Shown: positions 6,033 through 24,976 of the stretch, piece by piece
Numbering within the stretch: position 1 is the stretch's first letter
Layout of the letters: every line of letters starts with the position of its first letter
Virus record (IMG/VR): IMGVR_UViG_3300010150_000132
Location: 1 to 26,415 of that record
Direction: 5' to 3' (one strand)
DNA: 26,415 nucleotides
Origin: a virus
Position numbers and translations under genes: made by a program
The notes under the pieces: model-generated
What the model was told of the DNA's origin: nothing
The model's database searches: none
Seen by the model: the letters and a program-made list of their open reading frames with translations, nothing else

Positions 6033-7987
6033 AGTTCAATTCCTTTCTTTTTACTCCATCGAGTATCTATTCTATCCACCTCTACTGGTGTGGTGACTTC
6101 AAAGAAATCTCCAGCAGATTCCATTAATGACTTTATTGCATCAGCCACACTTGTGTACTTGGAAGCAGTTTTCTTTTTACGATCCTGTCTTCTCGAGTAG
6201 CATGACCACTTATCAAAATCAAATACCAATTCATCATGAATACACATGATTAGCTTGCCATGATTATTCTGGGGGAAGTCGTCATCGGGTTGTAGCCATT
6301 TGTCGATGCTAATCATGGCTTGGTTCAAGATGTCTCCAGCAGACCCTTGGATCTTATAGTTCGTTCCAATGTACGACCTGTCATTTGGGACATGTAATTT
6401 GTACCCACCAATAGTACGTACGAATCCATTCTTTCGGACTTCTTTAATTGTGTTGTCCATGAAGTCTCCGATGCCGGGATAAGCTTCCTTGAAGATCTTG
6501 TCGAAATTCTTTTTACCGGTCATCGCTTCCAGCTTTGCTCTACCTGCTCCGTAGATCAATCCGAAGTTAACACCCTTGGCTGCTTTTCGACTGATGTCAC
6601 ATAGGTCAGCGGTGAGAGCATGAATATCTGCACCATCTTCAAATGCCTGTAGTAGTTTTTCTTCCTTGGCGAGAACCGAAAGTATTCGTAGCTCCAGTTG
6701 GGAGTAGTCTGCTGCGAACCATACATGACCTTTCGCAGGTCCAAATACATCTCGCAGGCAGAAGTCATCAACCTCGTTACCAAAGGCATCCTTTCCTCCA
6801 GCACCAATATTCTGCCCATTAGGATTTGAGGATGACCATCGAGTCGTCTTCGTACCTGTCTGATTGAACGAAGGGTGCAAGACGGTCTTCTTACCCTCCC
6901 TCAGAGATAGATCTTTATAGCTCTGGAGGTACTGCGAGCAAGTTTTATTCTTTCGATAAGCCATGATGTTCCGAATGAACCTGCTGGCTTTAGACTTCTT
7001 AGAAACGTGATTCTCGTATAAGTCCAAAAGAGTACTGGCTGCAGTGCTAGCTCCAGTCTTTGTCGTCTGGATAACTGGGCACTTCAATCCTTTCTGGCGA
7101 GCGGAGGTTTCCCCATCTGGATCTCCATATAAGACCTTCGATATTTGAATACTTGATCGGATGTTGAATTCATCATCTAGAAAATCCTCTGCAATCTCTA
7201 TACAGGTTTGCTCGCATCCATCAGCAGCTTCTAAATATCGTTTAATTTCTGAAGACAAGATGCGAGGCTTGATCGTTACCCCCTCCTGCTCCATTCGATA
7301 AGTGATAGGTACGAGTTGTTTTCGAACTTCATAATGTTCACGTAAGCCTTCATCATCTAAAGCTGCTCGATCATACATCATCCAGAGCAGCATAGTTCGA
7401 ACAACGTCTTGCACAGCGTACTTTTCTAGTACGGAGGATTCTGGGTCCACTGCTTTAGGCAGCCAGTAGTCACAACGAACATTGCTTGTGTTGCTCAGGG
7501 TTGTTCCCAAAGTCCATCCTCGAGCCTTAGCAGCCCTTCTCGAAGCCCTCACCGACTCTAAAAGGTCATCTTCATCATCAGCCATAATGTCCAAATAATT
7601 CTCTGCCAGAGGTTTTAGCCCATGGGACTCCTCACTATTGCATACGTGCGAAGCTAGCAGCGTGTCCTCGAATCCTGCAAGTGTAGCTTCGAACGAATGG
7701 TTGTCGAAAGGAAGCGAAGCCCAATCTGGGAAGGCAAGTCGAATCCCTAAATTGTGCAAAGCTTTCACGTCAAATTTTATATTGTGAAAGACTAATGTCT
7801 CACCATCGATGTAATCTACGAGTTCTTGGATTTCCTCTTCAGAAGCCATGACTTGTCGAGTGTGTGGATCGACTGCCCACTCCCACAGCTTCGTAAGTCC
7901 GTTCTCGTCACAGGTAGATACTGCGAAAGGCATATCGCCATGGAACATATCTACTCCAGTGGTTTCCGTGTCTATTGCAATTAGCAT
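6029..7987 (-). CDS. polA-like: DNA polymerase I-type (family A) with 3'-5' exonuclease
   Basis: A 652-aa phage replicative polymerase. The N-terminal third is a DnaQ-like proofreading exonuclease: exo I IDTETTG (D6, E8), exo II FHNIKFD, and the exo III aspartate in the YAVQDVV segment. The polymerase domain shows motif A (ADYSQLELRIL), motif B (RKAAKGVNFGLIYGAG) and motif C (CIHDELVFD), with YKIQGSAGDI between B and C. No 5'-3' exonuclease domain is present, as usual for phage enzymes. The residue corresponding to E. coli Pol I F762 is phenylalanine. The ATG overlaps the glycosyltransferase stop by 7 bp, so the two are co-translated. The catalytic set is complete. Confidence 0.95.
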   Translation of the reverse strand: MLIAIDTETTGVDMFHGDMPFAVSTCDENGLTKLWEWAVDPHTRQVMASEEEIQELVDYIDGETLVFHNIKFDVKALHNLGIRLAFPDWASLPFDNHSFEATLAGFEDTLLASHVCNSEESHGLKPLAENYLDIMADDEDDLLESVRASRRAAKARGWTLGTTLSNTSNVRCDYWLPKAVDPESSVLEKYAVQDVVRTMLLWMMYDRAALDDEGLREHYEVRKQLVPITYRMEQEGVTIKPRILSSEIKRYLEAADGCEQTCIEIAEDFLDDEFNIRSSIQISKVLYGDPDGETSARQKGLKCPVIQTTKTGASTAASTLLDLYENHVSKKSKASRFIRNIMAYRKNKTCSQYLQSYKDLSLREGKKTVLHPSFNQTGTKTTRWSSSNPNGQNIGAGGKDAFGNEVDDFCLRDVFGPAKGHVWFAADYSQLELRILSVLAKEEKLLQAFEDGADIHALTADLCDISRKAAKGVNFGLIYGAGRAKLEAMTGKKNFDKIFKEAYPGIGDFMDNTIKEVRKNGFVRTIGGYKLHVPNDRSYIGTNYKIQGSAGDILNQAMISIDKWLQPDDDFPQNNHGKLIMCIHDELVFDFDKWSCYSRRQDRKKKTASKYTSVADAIKSLMESAGDFFEVTTPVEVDRIDTRWSKKKGIEL

Positions 7988-9192
7988 TTTGATTTCCCAA
8001 TGTACAACCCATAGTCATTGTTGGTTGCAGCTATTTGGACTCCCCTCTTTCGTTCTAAATAGTTGAATTTAAATGGTCGGTAGTCTACGTGGTGATGCCA
8101 GCGGTTGAATTTCCAGACAACTTTTGTAACGTCTGGATGCTGCTCCACCAAAGATTCCGCAAACTTTCTTCTTTGATCTTGGTCGGTATAAACGTGATCA
8201 GTGTTTCCCCCCTTCATTCGCATAGTGGTTACTTTGTCTGCAAGAAATGTATTGAATAAAATCGTGCATTGACCTGATTTTAAAATCCGCAATGAAAGAT
8301 CAGTGTCTTCGTTGTATCGCCCCCGCCACCTGAAGTCCAAATCGTTTCGCAAAAGGATGCATGAGTAGATCCTAGTGTTCAACGTGTATGGAGGTACTTT
8401 GTCAGTGACTTTGCAGAAGCTATGGTAATTGAATCCTGCCTGCCCAATATTTTTGTAGCGAAGTACGAAATCTTCTGCTGCTTTAAAGATCGCAGAAGTC
8501 TTTACTTTGATCTTCGTGTTGCGGACGAGTCGGTCGAAATCCTGAATGTTATCATCCAGTATCCAGTGCCACTTTTCTCCTCTTCGAGTTGAGTAGTCCC
8601 ATACCCAGTTACGTGCAGGGATGGAGCCTTGATCAAGATCACTGAAGGGAAGCGTTAACAGGTTTGCCTCCCCCATTGCTGCTGCGTAATCATCGTAGTC
8701 AACAGGCTCTATGACAACCTTGTGAGGTATTCCCATTCGGGATAAAGCTCTGCTTGTGATACAGCTAGTTGCTCGAGACTTGGAGATGACATAGAAAGGG
8801 AATTGTGGTGGATGACTTTCCTTGCTGAACCACGCTCGCCCCCTGCAATGCTTTCCCCTATCCAGTTTGGGATACCATATGCTTTTCGTCTTATTGGTAA
8901 TCTTTTGCTGAGTCACTCGAGCGAAGCTACTCCTGATCTCTTCACTATCCTGTAGGTGCACCGTCAATAATTTGTAAGGCTCTTTTTTATTTTGCACAAA
9001 GTCTGGCATCCCCACCCAATGTTCCTCCCAGTCCTGTACACAGGGTGGAGCAGATCTTTTGATCTTCCTCTTTGTGGTTGTTTCTTGGGATGGAAGTAGG
9101 AGTTCGTCGCAATCAGAAATATCGAGTCGGAGTCTATCTGAGAATTCCTTTACGAAATCTTCTGATGCAAACCTCACGTAGATCTTTTGCAT
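7981..9192 (-). CDS. TAGT-type (TET/JBP-associated) glycosyltransferase with an extra N-terminal domain
   Basis: 403 aa. The C-terminal ~280 residues match what I know of the TAGT/GREB1-related glycosyltransferase family: FYVISKSRA at ~134, VVIEPVDYDDY, LPFSD, PARNWVWD at ~192, HWILDDNIQDFDRL at ~209 (DD of a DxD-like metal/nucleotide-sugar site), EDFVLRYKNIGQAGFNY, and NEDTDLSLR at ~294. The family is predicted to put sugars on hydroxylated bases in phage DNA. The first ~110 residues form another module (DWEEHWVGMPDF, then KSIWYPKL) also seen in phage relatives. The ATG at 9192 follows AAGGA, whereas 9249 would overlap the upstream gene. No base hydroxylase or hydroxymethylase is in this window, so the substrate base is unknown. 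Confidence 0.75.
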   Translation of the reverse strand: MQKIYVRFASEDFVKEFSDRLRLDISDCDELLLPSQETTTKRKIKRSAPPCVQDWEEHWVGMPDFVQNKKEPYKLLTVHLQDSEEIRSSFARVTQQKITNKTKSIWYPKLDRGKHCRGRAWFSKESHPPQFPFYVISKSRATSCITSRALSRMGIPHKVVIEPVDYDDYAAAMGEANLLTLPFSDLDQGSIPARNWVWDYSTRRGEKWHWILDDNIQDFDRLVRNTKIKVKTSAIFKAAEDFVLRYKNIGQAGFNYHSFCKVTDKVPPYTLNTRIYSCILLRNDLDFRWRGRYNEDTDLSLRILKSGQCTILFNTFLADKVTTMRMKGGNTDHVYTDQDQRRKFAESLVEQHPDVTKVVWKFNRWHHHVDYRPFKFNYLERKRGVQIAATNNDYGLYIGKSKC

Positions 9193-9193
9193 A

Positions 9194-9325
9194 TCAAGAA
9201 TCCTTCTCGACTCGATACCCACATTGGACTTCAGTACAGACTTGTTCACCGTCTTCAGAGATCTGCATTAATCCACCGCACGCTGGGCAAACAACATCAC
9301 TTGTTATAGGTCTAGCTTTACTCAT
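9194..9325 (-). CDS. Small zinc-ribbon protein, 43 aa
   Basis: Two cysteine pairs define a zinc ribbon: VCPACGG and a second pair with spacing CTEVQCGY, joined by a short beta-hairpin (LMQISEDGEQ). Rubredoxin-like ribbons of this size are common in phages and usually of unknown role. The ATG at 9325 has GGAAAG upstream; longer ATGs run into the neighbour. It lies between a terminator (9338-9375) and the glycosyltransferase, with only 1 bp to that gene's start, so the two are probably translated together. Confidence 0.65.
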   Translation of the reverse strand: MSKARPITSDVVCPACGGLMQISEDGEQVCTEVQCGYRVEKDS

Positions 9326-18067: not shown

Positions 18068-19297
18068 TTATTCGGGAACTTGTTGTGGGGGAGCCTGTGG
18101 TCCAGAACCAAAAGCTTGTGCTGCTTCAGTAGCTCTGTTGTCTTCTCTAATTTGAGCTTCCCTCTCTTCAGCTTTCCCAGTAAGTCCAAATGGAATTATT
18201 TCGTACGGGACCTCACCGAAGTTGATCCTCACTAAGTGACGGAAGATCTGGTTATCTGCGTCAGAAATTAACCATTGAACCATCTCCTGCAGAATAGAAA
18301 AGAATGCTTCTTCAGGAATCTGTCTTCCTGATGCAGCACCAAATCCGCTGGTGGCATTCTGGAATACCTCGGGGGGAATCCCCATTCCTTCGAAGAGCTC
18401 TTCTTTAAGGCTTTGTCCGTACTCCATCAGCCCCGCAGGGATTTGATTTGACGTAGGAGGATGATACTCCCAACTCTTCACATTGTCTGCGCCCATGGTA
18501 TTTGGAAGCGTCAGTGTACCGCCTGTACGCTTCTTTTCGATCATTTCTCTGGCAAGGTCTTTGTTCGAGATAACCAACCCATCCTTCGTTCTTGTGATCC
18601 CCGGAGGATGGTACATCGTACCGCCCTCGAATGCATTCTTGTGGAACCACAACCGACGAACATCTCGATAACCACCATCGGACCACATCTCCCACCACGG
18701 GATATGGGCTCCGTACAATCTACTCAACCCATACCATGGGTGATGAGTTCTCCAGTGTATATGCCAGAATCCCTTGGGTATGCCTAAGAAGATCTTGTGG
18801 CGACCTTGCTTAGTATACGGGTCTGGTACATTGCGTACTGTAAAACCCACCAGTTGACCATCATGCGTAACAGCCATGCAATCTTGAGAATGCAAGTCCT
18901 TCATGATGTCAAATTGAATCTTTCCCTCATCTACTCGATACATAACTTCGCTGGCTGAGTATCCCCACTCAATTGCCTTTAAGGCTCGAGCAGCAGAGTT
19001 CTTCCAGAAACGAGTCACATTTTTGATTAGAAAATCTTTTACGTCATCGTTTTCACATTCAACATAAAATCTAGAGTTTGCCAGAATGGGTCCTTTGAGA
19101 AGCCAAAGACCAAATATAACTCGAGGATCTGCTAGCATTTCCTGAATCACTGTGAGACTGAAAGGGGGTCTATTTCTGGCGAAGAGAAATATGCCTGCAT
19201 ATCCGCTAGGCATGTAGTCAGCAGTTAACGGAGATCCTAATAGCTCATCAGGATTTACCTCTTTAGCGGATGATTTTACTGAATTATATGTAGCCAT
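18068..19297 (-). CDS. Portal protein, DUF935/Mu gp29-like
   Basis: 409 aa, slightly short for a portal (often 420-520). It would form the dodecameric ring at the capsid vertex through which DNA passes. Supporting features: ADPRVIFGLWLLKGPILANS near the start, the helix AARALKAIEWGYSASEVMY typical of DUF935 and Mu gp29 portals, a clip-like central region rich in Trp/His (FWHIHWRTHHPWYGLSRLYG), a DLAREMIEKKRTGGTLTLP segment, EELFEGMGIPPEVFQ, and a C-terminal helix with a Pro/Gln-rich tail. AGAG lies upstream of the ATG. The gene follows the frameshift pair by 2 bp. Finding the portal after tail genes, and not next to a terminase, is unusual. Confidence 0.75.
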   Translation of the reverse strand: MATYNSVKSSAKEVNPDELLGSPLTADYMPSGYAGIFLFARNRPPFSLTVIQEMLADPRVIFGLWLLKGPILANSRFYVECENDDVKDFLIKNVTRFWKNSAARALKAIEWGYSASEVMYRVDEGKIQFDIMKDLHSQDCMAVTHDGQLVGFTVRNVPDPYTKQGRHKIFLGIPKGFWHIHWRTHHPWYGLSRLYGAHIPWWEMWSDGGYRDVRRLWFHKNAFEGGTMYHPPGITRTKDGLVISNKDLAREMIEKKRTGGTLTLPNTMGADNVKSWEYHPPTSNQIPAGLMEYGQSLKEELFEGMGIPPEVFQNATSGFGAASGRQIPEEAFFSILQEMVQWLISDADNQIFRHLVRINFGEVPYEIIPFGLTGKAEEREAQIREDNRATEAAQAFGSGPQAPPQQVPE

Positions 19298-19299
19298 AT

Positions 19300-19551
19300 T
19301 TATTTACTCTTTTTTGCTTTGTTGATTACGAATGATGCAACAGCTTTACTCGCCTTATCTTCATCTTCGTATATATCATATATTAATCGATATAAACGAT
19401 CTTCATCCATAGAAGCTCTGCTGTTCCTTTCAAGCATTTCTCGCTTTGCTAAAACTCTTGGAATACCCATCTGAAGTAATCTGAGCTCACTTGATGTTAA
19501 ATCAAATGGGTTGATTCCATAAACTGAAGCTACGTCGATATGGCTTCGTAT
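19300..19551 (-). CDS. -1 frame extension of the frameshift gene (fusion product 19300-19835)
   Basis: An open frame of 83 codons with no usable start near its beginning. It lies exactly in the -1 frame relative to the 101-aa gene and stays open back through the A9 run at 19551-19559. After a -1 slip the ribosome would read IRSHIDVASVYGINPFDLTS and on to INKAKKSK, giving a fusion of about 178 aa. The extension is helical and charged (LYRLIYDIYEDEDK). This matches lambda G/GT-type tail assembly chaperones, where a minor frameshifted product carries a C-terminal domain. An internal ATG at 19470 has no ribosome binding site. A homopolymer sequencing error would instead make this one gene. Confidence 0.65.
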   Translation of the reverse strand: MRSHIDVASVYGINPFDLTSSELRLLQMGIPRVLAKREMLERNSRASMDEDRLYRLIYDIYEDEDKASKAVASFVINKAKKSK

Positions 19552-19560
19552 TTTTTTTTA
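19526..19560 (-). promoter_or_regulatory. -1 programmed frameshift site (A9 slippery run and short hairpin)
   Basis: Minus strand CTT AAA AAA AAA TAC: nine As at 19551-19559, in register for A_AAA_AAA slippage. Three nucleotides later GAAGC (19543-19547) can pair with GCTTC (19526-19530), a 5-bp hairpin with a 12-nt loop that is a weak candidate stimulator. The zero-frame stop TAG is at 19530-19532. Confidence 0.6.
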
Positions 19561-19835
19561 AGGTCCCACATTAATTTTACACATTCTTTGGCTATAAAAA
19601 ATGCATCTGTGTCAGAAATAGTAACATCGAATGTTTCACAAACTAAGGAGGAAAATTTAGGTAACCATCCTATAACTGCGTTGTCTTCCGATATATCTAT
19701 ATCTTTTTGGGCTTGAGCCAATAGATGATCGAGATAGAGTGCCTCTGCCTCAAAGATCGTATTATCTTCCGTATCTGCTAATCTGATTTTATAGTCCAGA
19801 TTGGGTGAGACTATTTTTACAATTTCACTACTCAT
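19530..19835 (-). CDS. Tail assembly chaperone-like protein, 101 aa (G analogue)
   Basis: The ATG at 19835 has AAAGGA 8 nt upstream. An acidic alpha/beta protein: IVSPNLDYKIRLADTED, a helical part (FEAEALYLDHLLAQAQKDI), then WLPKFSSLVCETFDVTISD and a last helix (AFFIAKECVKLMWDLKKK). It ends six codons after a CTT AAA AAA AAA TAC run, whose A_AAA_AAA heptamer is a classical -1 slippery site. Chaperones of this type coat the tape measure protein during tail assembly and are known for such frameshifts. The assignment rests on the frameshift and the structural-module context, since I do not recognise the sequence family. Unlike the usual order, the tape-measure candidate lies upstream rather than downstream. 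Confidence 0.6.
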   Translation of the reverse strand: MSSEIVKIVSPNLDYKIRLADTEDNTIFEAEALYLDHLLAQAQKDIDISEDNAVIGWLPKFSSLVCETFDVTISDTDAFFIAKECVKLMWDLKKKYEAIST

Positions 19836-19845
19836 ATTAAATCCT

Positions 19846-22131
19846 TTATTGTAAATTTCCTGATGCAGGGCTTCCGGTTCCTTGTGATAAATACTCAGCG
19901 GGATTGCCTCTGAGTATTGTTGCACTATCTGCGCTGGGAGAACCAACACAGGTATAGTGTATATCCCACATCGTTCTATAAATTCTAGTATTACCTCGAT
20001 CAACGATTAGCTCAATATTATACCTTGATTTCCCCTTTACTAGTATTGCTTTTCCATATTTATGTTGGCGTGGGACAGGTAGGGGTTTATTCGCTGAGGT
20101 AGCTACTCCAAACATCCTGACTCCGAAGAATTGAGCACCATTGTTAACTTGTATTTGCAATGCATGTTGGTCATCATCAGGATCAATAAGATTTTCGCAT
20201 GGGTTAAACCCAAACTTTTTGTCTGGGCTTCCAGCAGAAGTCCATTTTGCTTCAGTTGTACCAATTATATTTTGTGTAGCACTATTAGCATTCGCATATC
20301 CGTCTACGTCATTCCCAATCATTGAAGAAAGGCTACGAGATCCGTAATTTGTTTTTTGCCAAGTATGGCTACCCGGTGACTCATAAATCTCATATTGATT
20401 GGAGTAGCTCAACGTACGTTGATCATTCTCTACCTGACCGGTGAATAGGTCGGAATCAGTAGGTCCTCCTGAGGCAGACGCTCCTTGAGGAATTCTGGTG
20501 TACCAAAAATCAGCATTATTCAGACAAGGTTCCTGCCTCGCATCACCCTCAAACCACATACCCCTAAATCCTCTATTCGACATGGGAGCCCCACGTTGGA
20601 GTTGGGTTCCCGCACCCCACCGCCCTAAGACTGGCAGCGTCTGTGTATAATCTTTCCATATGGTATTTCCGTCAGCATCTACACCCTGTACTTGACTAGT
20701 ATGTAAAGTCAAGGTTATGGGAGAAGGTAGGAAGTCCCCATTGGTAGAATCATTACCCGTCCCGTAAACCGAGTGTAGCCATAGATCCCAATCCCAAGTA
20801 GCTCCAGCATCCCGTAACTGCCCAGCGTGATGGGTGGTTTGATTGGTACTCACTTCAGCATATTGATTAGGTGGAGCTCCGAAAGCAAGTTGGTAAGCTG
20901 CTTCATCTGGAGGGACGATTTTCATAAAGGTAAAACTGAAGTTAAAATTTCTGCCAAAAATCTCTTCTCCCATACTAAAGTCTAACGGGATAGCAAATGC
21001 AGGCTTATCAGAAGTTGCATCTTTATTGAAATCAGCAGGAAAGCTTGTTCTCATAGATCCGCTCGAAGATGCAGCGGATGCAGTTGCAGTTTGGTGGAAT
21101 CTACTACGTATCAACAATAGGATTAGATAGTATGGGTAGATCCTTCTCCAGAAAGGGTGAAAACCCTTCGCCAAAGTAAAGGTTCCACCAATGGTAGCAT
21201 CCCATATATTAAATCCTTGTTTGCCTCCGAAGGGTGTAGCTCCCAGAAGGCTGGATGAAATATCATAGCTTACCTGTATGTCTATGACGCCGGGAGGAAG
21301 GGGGAAGTCAGATTCATATTCAACATCTGTAATAGATATTTCAAGGCGAGTTTTCTTTTCGTCTAACTTATAACTTCTCGTCCGTCTAAACCCAGCCTGT
21401 AGGGCAGGCTCAAAGAAAACCCTGTAGTGGTCTGCAGAATCTAAAACCTTTCTAACATCCGTTGGATTTATTTGACCTCGAGTTTCCACGACTGCATCGT
21501 AAGTTTTAGTTGTTGCTCCCGTTTCACTGATGTCCCATGACTGGTTGTAATAAACCTGCAAGATGTTCCATGGGATCGCCCCATTGGGAAGAGGACGTTT
21601 ATGTGGGATTAACGCATCTGGAATACGTCTTTCTTTGTTATTAGCACTGGGATTCTCACACTCAACCAATCCTACTTCACACTCCCAAGTAACTGTGGCT
21701 GCACGATTCATCCCCAAAGGTTTCCAGCTAATCATTCTGGGCTTTGGACCCCATGTCACATCCCACACATAGTTTACAGCAGGATCATTAATACGTAGGT
21801 CGGGACCTAAGCCTATCTTTGCAACATGAAATGTTCTGCCGGGCTGACATAGTTTTCTGCGAAGATGAGCCATTTGATTGTCAATAGACCCTTTACTCGC
21901 TCCCGTATTCCACGCAGATGTTTCTGTTCCAGTTTCACCTAGCTTTCCAACAAGATCCAAGTCAATGATGAACTCAATACGAATTCGGTACATCATGTAC
22001 ATTATGCTGCGATCCGTATCATCGTATACAGGAGTACATTGCACAGAAGTGTTTAATGCGGGGGGAAATAAGAAACCATTGTAGGTAACTTGCCCTAAAT
22101 CAAATTGGTCGTAATGTTCAAGTCCTGACAT
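19846..22131 (-). CDS. Large virion structural protein, 761 aa
   Basis: Family not named. The N-terminus (DQFDLGQVTYNGFLFPPALN, then YDDTDRSIMYMMYRIRIEFI) and the segment AATVTWECEVGLVECE resemble a long protein I associate with planctomycete-type prophages and uncultured aquatic phages. It is beta-rich: IDIQVSYDISSSLLGATPFGG, FTLAKGFHPFWRRIYPYYLILLLIRS, FNFSFTFMKIVPP, then Asn/Gly/Ser-rich loops, and a C-terminal KYGKAILVKGKSRYNIELI. This fits a tail or baseplate surface protein. The ATG at 22131 follows AAGG by 11 nt and is preferred over 22206, which lies inside the upstream gene. The neighbours are a tape-measure-like gene and the frameshift pair. Confidence 0.7.
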   Translation of the reverse strand: MSGLEHYDQFDLGQVTYNGFLFPPALNTSVQCTPVYDDTDRSIMYMMYRIRIEFIIDLDLVGKLGETGTETSAWNTGASKGSIDNQMAHLRRKLCQPGRTFHVAKIGLGPDLRINDPAVNYVWDVTWGPKPRMISWKPLGMNRAATVTWECEVGLVECENPSANNKERRIPDALIPHKRPLPNGAIPWNILQVYYNQSWDISETGATTKTYDAVVETRGQINPTDVRKVLDSADHYRVFFEPALQAGFRRTRSYKLDEKKTRLEISITDVEYESDFPLPPGVIDIQVSYDISSSLLGATPFGGKQGFNIWDATIGGTFTLAKGFHPFWRRIYPYYLILLLIRSRFHQTATASAASSSGSMRTSFPADFNKDATSDKPAFAIPLDFSMGEEIFGRNFNFSFTFMKIVPPDEAAYQLAFGAPPNQYAEVSTNQTTHHAGQLRDAGATWDWDLWLHSVYGTGNDSTNGDFLPSPITLTLHTSQVQGVDADGNTIWKDYTQTLPVLGRWGAGTQLQRGAPMSNRGFRGMWFEGDARQEPCLNNADFWYTRIPQGASASGGPTDSDLFTGQVENDQRTLSYSNQYEIYESPGSHTWQKTNYGSRSLSSMIGNDVDGYANANSATQNIIGTTEAKWTSAGSPDKKFGFNPCENLIDPDDDQHALQIQVNNGAQFFGVRMFGVATSANKPLPVPRQHKYGKAILVKGKSRYNIELIVDRGNTRIYRTMWDIHYTCVGSPSADSATILRGNPAEYLSQGTGSPASGNLQ

Positions 22132-22144
22132 TTTACATCTTACC

Positions 22145-23755
22145 TTATGGGTTAAGTCCGAAAGGAATACGAGGATGGTTAACGCCGGGGACTTGCATTG
22201 CGTCAACAGTTCCTCCCATCAACCAATTACCAAATGCTAGATCCGCTGGAGTAGCAGGACCTCGTAATAGAGCCAGAGCATCCGCAGCGTCCTGAGCCAT
22301 GCCTTGAATGCCTAGTGCGATATTAGTCAGAGCACCGCTAACAGTAGCTCCTATGCCCGGAATTCCAGCAGCAATAGTTGCTAAAGCTTCTACCCCTGAT
22401 GCTAATGCATTCAGTAGATGAGGAATGTTTTCCAAGAATCGTTCTAACAGTTCCGTTACCATTTTCAAGATCTGAGTTACTAGAGGTCCTAAGATTTTGA
22501 TGAGGATAGTTTTAATGTCCTCCATTACAGATACGAAATCTCCCCTTTGTTCTTCCCAATCTGCTAATTCATCCCCTACAATTTGAGCTCGTTGGATTTG
22601 CTTATGAAGGACTTCGATCTCGGTCCCAATACGCTCCATAAGAATGTCAGGGTTGAAACCCATGACTTCTTCAGAAGCATTGTCCATAGCAGCCATAAAC
22701 CCTTTAAAGGTATTTATCACCCCACCAACTACGCCATCTAGACCTTCCATGACCCCGCCAAGACCGGGGATTACGCTAGTCAATTCTGCTGCAGCACCAG
22801 AAACAGATTGAAGGGCTCCACCCACAGCATCTGCTTGTTCTTGAACATTGCTAGATCCAATTGCAGTTACTGCTGCCTCTGCTCCACCAGTACCAAGATG
22901 TGTTGCTGCATTGAGCCCTGACCCAGCAAGTCCTCCCACTGCTTTAAGGGAGCCCATCCCAACTTTTGCAGCACCAGATCCAATCTTATCCCAACCCGTA
23001 GCCCCCATTGTTGCAATTGCTTGAGCTGTCCCTGCAGCTGCTTCAGCAGCACCACCTGAGGCATCTGCAACTCCTTGTTCAAAGGTGGACAGACCACCAC
23101 CGCCATCTCCACCACCACCCCCACCGCCTTGACTCTGATCATCTTGAACATTGACAGCCTCCATTGCAGCTTCACGATCATCATGCTCGTCGGAAGAAAT
23201 GTCCTCGTTCCTTTGGTATTGGTCTGGATTTTTAATTTTATGTTTAGCAGACCTCCAGTCGGAGTAAAACCCATCATCACTGACATCCCCCCTGCCAAAG
23301 TGACCTTGAGAGGAATCTCGTTTCTTATCGAGAATATGAGCCTCTTCTTCCGATATCCCCATAGGACGATTAGGGTCATTCGCCCCATTCCTCCATCGAT
23401 CCAATATTTCCCATGGATTTTTAGACGGTTCACCGTAGAAGGGTTCACCCCTACCCCCACCGCCTTCAACAGGCTGCAATGCATAACCTGCTGTTGGTCC
23501 ACGACCAGTTTGCCCAGCCCAAACATCAGGTCTTCCAGCATTCCTAGCAGCTGCGGTAGAGTTCAAATCTTGATGGAACTGTCTTTGCGCATCCCTGTAG
23601 GTGGCATTTGGATTAGATTTTTGCATCTCCTTTAGGAGATTGCGTATTTCCTCCGCTAACAATTTACTTGATTCAGAAAAAGTACTAGGCTCATTCGATC
23701 CTCGAATAGGGGAACCTAGTCCTTCGCTCTGAATTGTAATTGTATGATCAGCCAT
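22145..23755 (-). CDS. Tape-measure-like or other tail protein, 536 aa
   Basis: Three zones are visible. Residues 1-205 are hydrophilic and probably disordered (Gln/Asn/Asp-rich). Residues 210-221 are a Gly run with one Asp. Residues 222-340 are Ala/Gly-rich with repeated GA.A/GG.A patterns; a helical segment follows (MERIGTEIEVLHKQIQRAQI, then VMEDIKTILIKIL), and residues ~420-500 are hydrophobic helices (LVTQILKMVTELLERFL; ALATIAAGIPGIGATVSGAL). Hydrophobic helices with Ala/Gly-rich stretches suit a short tape measure, and its place after the tail-tube-like gene is the expected one. At 536 aa it would specify a short tail. It starts inside the previous gene with an 8-bp overlap (ATGGCTGA). 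Confidence 0.5.
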   Translation of the reverse strand: MADHTITIQSEGLGSPIRGSNEPSTFSESSKLLAEEIRNLLKEMQKSNPNATYRDAQRQFHQDLNSTAAARNAGRPDVWAGQTGRGPTAGYALQPVEGGGGRGEPFYGEPSKNPWEILDRWRNGANDPNRPMGISEEEAHILDKKRDSSQGHFGRGDVSDDGFYSDWRSAKHKIKNPDQYQRNEDISSDEHDDREAAMEAVNVQDDQSQGGGGGGGDGGGGLSTFEQGVADASGGAAEAAAGTAQAIATMGATGWDKIGSGAAKVGMGSLKAVGGLAGSGLNAATHLGTGGAEAAVTAIGSSNVQEQADAVGGALQSVSGAAAELTSVIPGLGGVMEGLDGVVGGVINTFKGFMAAMDNASEEVMGFNPDILMERIGTEIEVLHKQIQRAQIVGDELADWEEQRGDFVSVMEDIKTILIKILGPLVTQILKMVTELLERFLENIPHLLNALASGVEALATIAAGIPGIGATVSGALTNIALGIQGMAQDAADALALLRGPATPADLAFGNWLMGGTVDAMQVPGVNHPRIPFGLNP

Positions 23756-23975
23756 CGTGCTCTACCGCAGAAAGATTATTCAAATCAACTTCAACTATGG
23801 GCACTTCTGCACGTTGTCGTATAGGACTACCTGCTTTACTTGCCCGTAGTTCCCTCTCTTCATCTGTCCAAGCATCTCGAATCTGCTTGGAGGCTTCCTT
23901 GATGTGGGCATCAAGAATAGCCTCTTCCGCATTATTGCGAGGTCCTTTTGAGAATAGATCGGAAATTAAACACAT
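23748..23975 (-). CDS. Hypothetical protein, 75 aa
   Basis: Not recognised. A charged, mostly helical protein (AEEAILDAHIKEASKQIRDAWTDEERELRASK) with an acidic end. It starts 4 bp after the tail-tube-like stop; no clear Shine-Dalgarno sequence is seen, so it probably depends on translational coupling. Its position between tube and tape-measure candidates is where tail assembly chaperones normally sit, but it has no slippery sequence. Confidence 0.55.
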   Translation of the reverse strand: MCLISDLFSKGPRNNAEEAILDAHIKEASKQIRDAWTDEERELRASKAGSPIRQRAEVPIVEVDLNNLSAVEHDG

Positions 23976-23979
23976 TTAA

Positions 23980-24510
23980 TTAAGTAGTCGTGTACCACTT
24001 AATAGCTTCGTTATAACTCGCAGCTTGGGAAGATCCAGATCCATCAGGATATGAAATCAAACGCAATGGTAATCGACGAAGTCGACTAGCATAGATAACC
24101 CGTACTGGGAAGTTTCTAGCGAGGATTGATTTTGTGAAAGTGATCGAAGCTGGACTAGCAGCAGCAGGAGTATTACCTAATGCAGTTAGCACCAAAGCAG
24201 CAGAAGCATCAGAGATTACATCACCGATCACACCAGCAACACCTTCAGCCGCTTGAGTCCAATCGATTTTGGAACTTCCCGCACCTGCAGCAGCAGCCCG
24301 ACCTTTGTTGTATTCTATGAGTGTGAAGTTCACATAAACATCGCACCCTCGATGGATCTCGTCTTGGATCGAATCACCAAGATTGTCACCTCGTACAGCT
24401 TCGCTATACAGGGTATGTTCAATTTCAAATCCATCTTCAGTAGCACCGATGTACGTTCCGTTGTAGGAACCGTAGTACGGTCCAGATATAGCACTAGCAG
24501 TTACAGCCAT
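23980..24510 (-). CDS. Tail tube-like (major tail) protein, 176 aa
   Basis: The pattern resembles tail tube proteins of siphovirus-type planctomycete and cyanobacterial prophages as I recall them: ISGPYYGSYNGTYIGATEDGFEIEHTLYSEAVRGDNLGDS, then IHRGCDVYVNFTLIEYN, an Ala/Gly-rich helix (AEGVAGVIGDVISDASAALVLTALG), then ITFTKSILARNFPVRVIYASRLRRLPLRLISYP. The early beta strands followed by a helix suit the tube fold. The ATG at 24510 has AAAGGAATAG upstream; 24567 has no ribosome binding site and overlaps the previous gene. It is preceded by tail-completion-like genes and followed by a tape-measure-like gene, the standard tail order. Confidence 0.55.
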   Translation of the reverse strand: MAVTASAISGPYYGSYNGTYIGATEDGFEIEHTLYSEAVRGDNLGDSIQDEIHRGCDVYVNFTLIEYNKGRAAAAGAGSSKIDWTQAAEGVAGVIGDVISDASAALVLTALGNTPAAASPASITFTKSILARNFPVRVIYASRLRRLPLRLISYPDGSGSSQAASYNEAIKWYTTT

Positions 24511-24514
24511 TACT

Positions 24515-24976
24515 CTATTCCTTTGTCTTAAAATAAGCCATGCGTTTATCCATCTCTTCACCTTCAAGATCGGTTAAACGCTCTAAACATTCATAACAGG
24601 TTGTTGCAGTCGGAACTACGGTCATGGATCGAGGGTAGTCTAGATCTTCTTCTGAAGAAGAGTTGTAGGCTTCCATTGATCTTTCACATGCGAATTCCCA
24701 TCGCTTGATTGGATGCTCGGTAAAGCTTCCGGGGCTTGTTTCTAATGATCCGTGAACTGATCCATTCTCATTGGGTATGAGAAGATGGACCAAGTCCAAT
24801 GTTCTTAAAAATTCACCACACTTTTCGCATTTGTCAGATGCGATACGTTCTCGTTTCCAGCCACCTGCTGTGTCTTTAAATGGGAGAAACTTGAGAGAAT
24901 TTCTCTCAGAGCACCCACCATTTCTGCAGAGGACTGGGAACAGTCTAACTTCGGGCTTGTGTATCTTAAATGTCAT
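24515..24976 (-). CDS. Cysteine-rich hypothetical protein, 153 aa
   Basis: Not recognised by family. Six of its seven cysteines fall into three groups: VLCRNGGCSE near residue 17, KCEKCGE near 50, and TTCYECLERL near 127. The first two could form a four-cysteine zinc site. The start overlaps the previous stop by 4 bp (ATGA), with GGGAG about 10 nt before. Located between tail-terminator-like and tail-tube-like genes, it may be a virion or assembly protein. Confidence 0.6.
   Translation of the reverse strand: MTFKIHKPEVRLFPVLCRNGGCSERNSLKFLPFKDTAGGWKRERIASDKCEKCGEFLRTLDLVHLLIPNENGSVHGSLETSPGSFTEHPIKRWEFACERSMEAYNSSSEEDLDYPRSMTVVPTATTCYECLERLTDLEGEEMDKRMAYFKTKE

Follow-up and report, generated by a model that had tools for sequence, protein, structure and literature searches.

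The −1 frameshift of tail assembly chaperones is among the best-kept features of long-tailed phages, and the chaperone gene is usually recognised by its place between the tail-tube and tape-measure genes, a common though not universal location. In phages lambda (gpG/gpGT) and HK97 (gp13/14) a short gene receives an additional C-terminal domain through a −1 shift near its 3′ end, and a −1 frameshift likewise gives rise to the E and E+E′ products of phage P2 (PF06528, Phage_P2_GpE). The locus described here resembles lambda and HK97 in that architecture, in its canonical heptamer and in its location within the structural module, and lies in a 26.4-kb stretch of viral DNA (the window) that corresponds to IMG/VR virus record IMGVR_UViG_3300010150_000132 and in which the structural genes occupy the minus strand. 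We refer to its two frames as G and T and to both together as the cassette.

The G gene (19530-19835, minus strand) starts with an ATG at 19835, encodes 101 amino acids and stops at 19530-19532. Close to its end the minus strand reads GAC CTT AAA AAA AAA TAC GAA GCC ATA TCG ACG TAG, with a run of nine adenines (A9) at 19551-19559 that contains the in-register heptamer A AAA AAA (19551-19557) and precedes the zero-frame stop by six codons. The −1 frame opens as ATA CGA AGC and constitutes the T extension (19300-19551, minus strand), made of 83 codons from 19551 to 19303 and a TAA at 19302-19300 that leaves 2 bp to the ATG of the portal gene at 19297. These positions, from the CTT AAA AAA AAA TAC context of the 101-aa gene to the 83-codon frame ending just ahead of the portal gene, agree on checking with the preliminary description of the locus. 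The T frame begins at the slippery run and lacks a conserved start separate from that of G. Since another TAA, immediately 5′ of the A run, closes the −1 frame, the shift must fall within the 31-nt overlap at 19530-19560 (minus strand), where an in-register heptamer would occur by chance with a probability of about 4%. A single A9 in the window is unremarkable, 0.8 being expected, so that the weight of the run rests on its conservation. The count of nine, for which confirmation had been sought, is the same in three assemblies of this phage, the window and two other IMG/VR records that are 99.87% and 99.97% identical to it (14 and 3 mismatches over more than 10 kb) and align without gaps.

Relatives were collected through matches to the portal protein and then with a portal profile. 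All nine portal relatives at 72-100% identity have exactly nine adenines followed by the extension, and the profile added 18 viral loci (43-58% portal identity) and one locus from a gammaproteobacterial MAG (36%). After removal of near-copies, the cassette is found upstream of the portal gene in 22 distinct loci, namely the window and 21 further relatives. In each of them (22/22) a canonical XXXYYYZ heptamer in register joins a long G to a long T by a −1 shift, and the T frame reaches the portal start or stops close by; the conserved slippery run, frame and extension that had been looked for in homologous phages are thus maintained. The naive combined chance of the in-register heptamers is about 1e-21, a figure to be read with the non-independence of the loci in mind. 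The heptamers themselves are A AAA AAA, A AAA AAC, A AAA AAT, GGGAAAC (L039 and L041, where the zero-frame stop TGA comes at once after it), AAATTTT (L045) and TTTTTTC (L044), and their class, with the fused state counted, must have changed four times or more on the portal tree. In the pairs close enough for measurement (L006/L007 and L009/L010) the extension gave dN/dS values of 0.05-0.06 in the −1 frame and of about 0.9-1.2 in a zero-frame reading. Judged by these ratios, selection on T acts at the protein level in the −1 frame; purifying selection on the extension is strong there and confined to that frame. The finding of 8 or 10 adenines in relatives had been named as evidence against the frameshift; such counts are absent from the nine close relatives, and ten adenines do occur in the most distant one, the MAG locus (L057:7466-8014), in which G and T form one continuous frame. 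That A10 could reflect either a genuine fusion or an error in the homopolymer of the MAG sequence.

Heptamer turnover, purifying selection on the −1 frame and retention of the site in 22 distinct loci make the programmed −1 frameshift joining G and T, as first proposed, close to certain at the level of sequence. By the same comparisons the two frames behave as a single conserved gene, and the shift is −1 and placed at the slippery heptamer. Its agent could in principle be the RNA polymerase, which would generate the fusion by adding one A to the A9 run: nine adenines are sufficient for polymerase slippage, and the A10 of L057, with both parts in one frame, is the expected outcome of one extra A. 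Yet the same −1 join occurs at the same place in the relatives with GGGAAAC, AAATTTT and TTTTTTC, where the long homopolymer is missing and polymerase slippage is not expected, and every A-run site retains a canonical heptamer in register. The variation in heptamer type, and in particular the use of non-homopolymer heptamers by relatives, points to ribosomal frameshifting as the mechanism of the family rather than to polymerase slippage or pseudogenes; we therefore consider polymerase slippage as the source of the fusion very improbable, although on the A9 run it could act in addition to the ribosomal shift. A single reading frame split by a sequencing or assembly error, or by gene decay, has the proneness of homopolymers to error and, again, the continuous frame of L057 on its side. 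It is refuted in substance by the agreement of three assemblies of the window phage with zero indels, by the recurrence of the −1 arrangement in 21 further loci, some of them with non-homopolymer sites, and by purifying selection on both parts, so that its probability is negligible.

Under ribosomal −1 frameshifting, ribosomes would make the 101-aa G protein, and some of them would slip back one base at A AAA AAA, with tandem slippage of tRNA-Lys, and go on for another 83 residues, so that a fusion of G and T about 178 aa long would result. We infer both products and the ratio between them. Folding of the downstream RNA against shuffles at 20 loci revealed no shared stem-loop. The RNA was clearly better than shuffles only in L050 (z −4.4), L054 (z −2.8) and L041 (z −2.3), with z −1.9 in the window, and an Rfam search gave no match. 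Slippery sites made of A runs can function without a stem-loop.

The position of the cassette is unusual throughout the clade, as had been suspected, although it was described as following a tape-measure-like gene and preceding the portal gene, which is right in order but not in adjacency. In the window a tape-measure-like gene (22145-23755, minus strand; 536 aa; phrog_4197, E 4e-4) is separated from the cassette by a large structural gene (19846-22206, minus strand; at most 786 aa) of a family characterized by the pattern ..YNGF.FPP.., which had no family match when the proteins of the window were scanned against Pfam and PHROG and whose product is probably a tail tip or hub protein. Directly downstream of the cassette lies the portal gene (18068-19297, minus strand; 409 aa; Portal_Mu PF06074, phrog_113). 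Genes of the clade run in the order tail terminator-like, tail tube-like, tape-measure-like (variable in size, 282-658 aa), a gene of 570-790 aa, G/GT and portal, which puts the cassette two genes downstream of the canonical slot. In 15 relatives only 3-77 bp separate the tail-tube and tape-measure genes, so that the usual slot holds no chaperone there. The window and its close relatives carry in that slot a gene of 75-82 aa with no frameshift seen (75 aa in the window, at 23748-23975, minus strand), which is restricted to them. The tail-tube and tape-measure names used in the clade are putative and come from position and weak matches; the window tail-tube gene (23980-24567, minus strand; 195 aa) was assigned by position and a weak pattern (phrog_2175, E 0.0095), and the gene in the tape-measure place of L015 matches phrog_167 at 2e-6.

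Other features of these genomes deserve mention. In the near-complete relatives G004 and G005 the entire tail module precedes the portal gene (18068-19297 in the window; L011-L016), which lies a long way from the terminase, protease and capsid genes, an unusual order for head genes. The portal ORF is about twice the 409 aa of the window in L068:9235-11769 (844 aa) and L057:7995-11018 (1007 aa), which suggests that a head gene downstream of it has been fused to the ORF. Between the terminase and capsid genes at L012:11103-13414 (minus strand) two genes, of 305 and 461 aa, are inverted, and the inverted pair is also present in G005 (L016:536-2806). A tblastn comparison of the major capsid protein and a 780-aa protein with named phages gave no match. 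Among the replication genes of the window, 7981-9249 (minus strand) encodes a predicted glycosyltransferase (phrog_842, HMC glucosyltransferase-like, E 1.5e-40), with DNA base modification as a possible function.

AlphaFold predicts G as a β-hairpin with three helices (pLDDT 89) and T as four helices (pLDDT 90). The impression that the sequence belongs to no recognised family was borne out: neither the window G and T nor any member of their alignments matched Pfam or PHROG, a tblastn search of 50,697 phage records with G and T returned nothing meaningful, and Foldseek found no match for G in PDB or BFVD or for T in PDB. The Pfam and PHROG tail-chaperone families, including those of lambda G and HK97 gp13, likewise gave no match to the cassette in sequence or fold. 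The comparison of both parts with tail chaperones that had been suggested showed no homology at the profile level, hhalign of the cassette to the lambda, HK97, Mu, P2 and Andromeda chaperones singling out only P2 E′, and that not significantly.

Since the named chaperone families tested do not accommodate it, the cassette is described as working like G/GT and is not assigned to a catalogued family. It shares with the G/GT class two overlapping frames, the first of which carries the canonical heptamer for the −1 shift close to its end, as well as a conserved frameshift and selection on the extension, and by this analogy it is probably a G/GT-type tail assembly chaperone made with a frameshift. 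Following lambda, whose G/GT roles have been reviewed (PMC5009743), the tape-measure protein would be coated by G, the abundant product, and GT, the scarce one, would bring in tail-tube subunits through the helical T domain, whereupon tail polymerisation would begin. The cassette always adjoins the portal and the 570-790 aa gene and never the tape measure, and it shows no homology to known tail chaperones, as would suit a head-side or connector factor such as a portal or tip assembly chaperone. A two-product −1 frameshift of such architecture is nevertheless the hallmark of tail chaperones, and the canonical slot of 15 relatives holds no other candidate, which makes the head-side role unlikely. 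It is also conceivable, if doubtful, that a separate lineage of frameshift-made assembly chaperones, unrelated to the lambda and P2 kinds, arose beside the portal gene or moved there in this group of uncultured phages, and that it links the initiation of tails to the products of the portal or tip genes. We retain the inferred tail-chaperone role, drawn from analogy, as the preferred reading.

A G/GT-like frameshift is a kind of system already known. What is new here is an unrecognised protein family, for which G and T provide annotation tools with a new entry, and its clade-wide displacement to the side of a portal gene which in turn lies well away from the terminase and capsid genes. Recoding was kept through replacement of the slippery heptamer while the gene moved past two others, so that the clade offers a test of what conservation truly acts on, namely recoding and stoichiometry and not the position or sequence of the gene.

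Among described systems P2 E′ comes nearest in sequence, T sharing a similar opening motif with it (ADVA..[FY]..NP in T, ADVA..F..P in outline), but the resemblance is only suggestive. One T member reached E 0.043 against PF06528, the best score of 13.8 bits lying below the family cut-off of 23, and T ranked about second of 101 against a shuffled null with a 13-sequence P2 E′ profile, which is not significant; a PF06528 search of 143 genomes for more E′ sequences gave 2 matches. T is also longer (80-100 aa and four predicted helices, against about 50 aa for E′) and differs in gene position. The nearest named portal relatives are those of Andromedavirus (Bacillus phage Andromeda), at about 26% identity, where the tape measure is followed by an 832-aa structural gene in an order resembling that of the clade; in contrast, gp24, annotated as the Andromeda chaperone, has the usual place ahead of the tape measure, and the portal gene of that phage adjoins the terminase. 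With lambda and HK97 a relation in sequence or fold was not detected by Foldseek or hhalign; the GGGAAAC of L039 and L041 stands beside GGGAAAG, the slippery heptamer of lambda. Whereas the lambda and HK97 genes lie between the tail tube and the tape measure, the cassette follows the tape measure and the next gene and directly precedes the portal.
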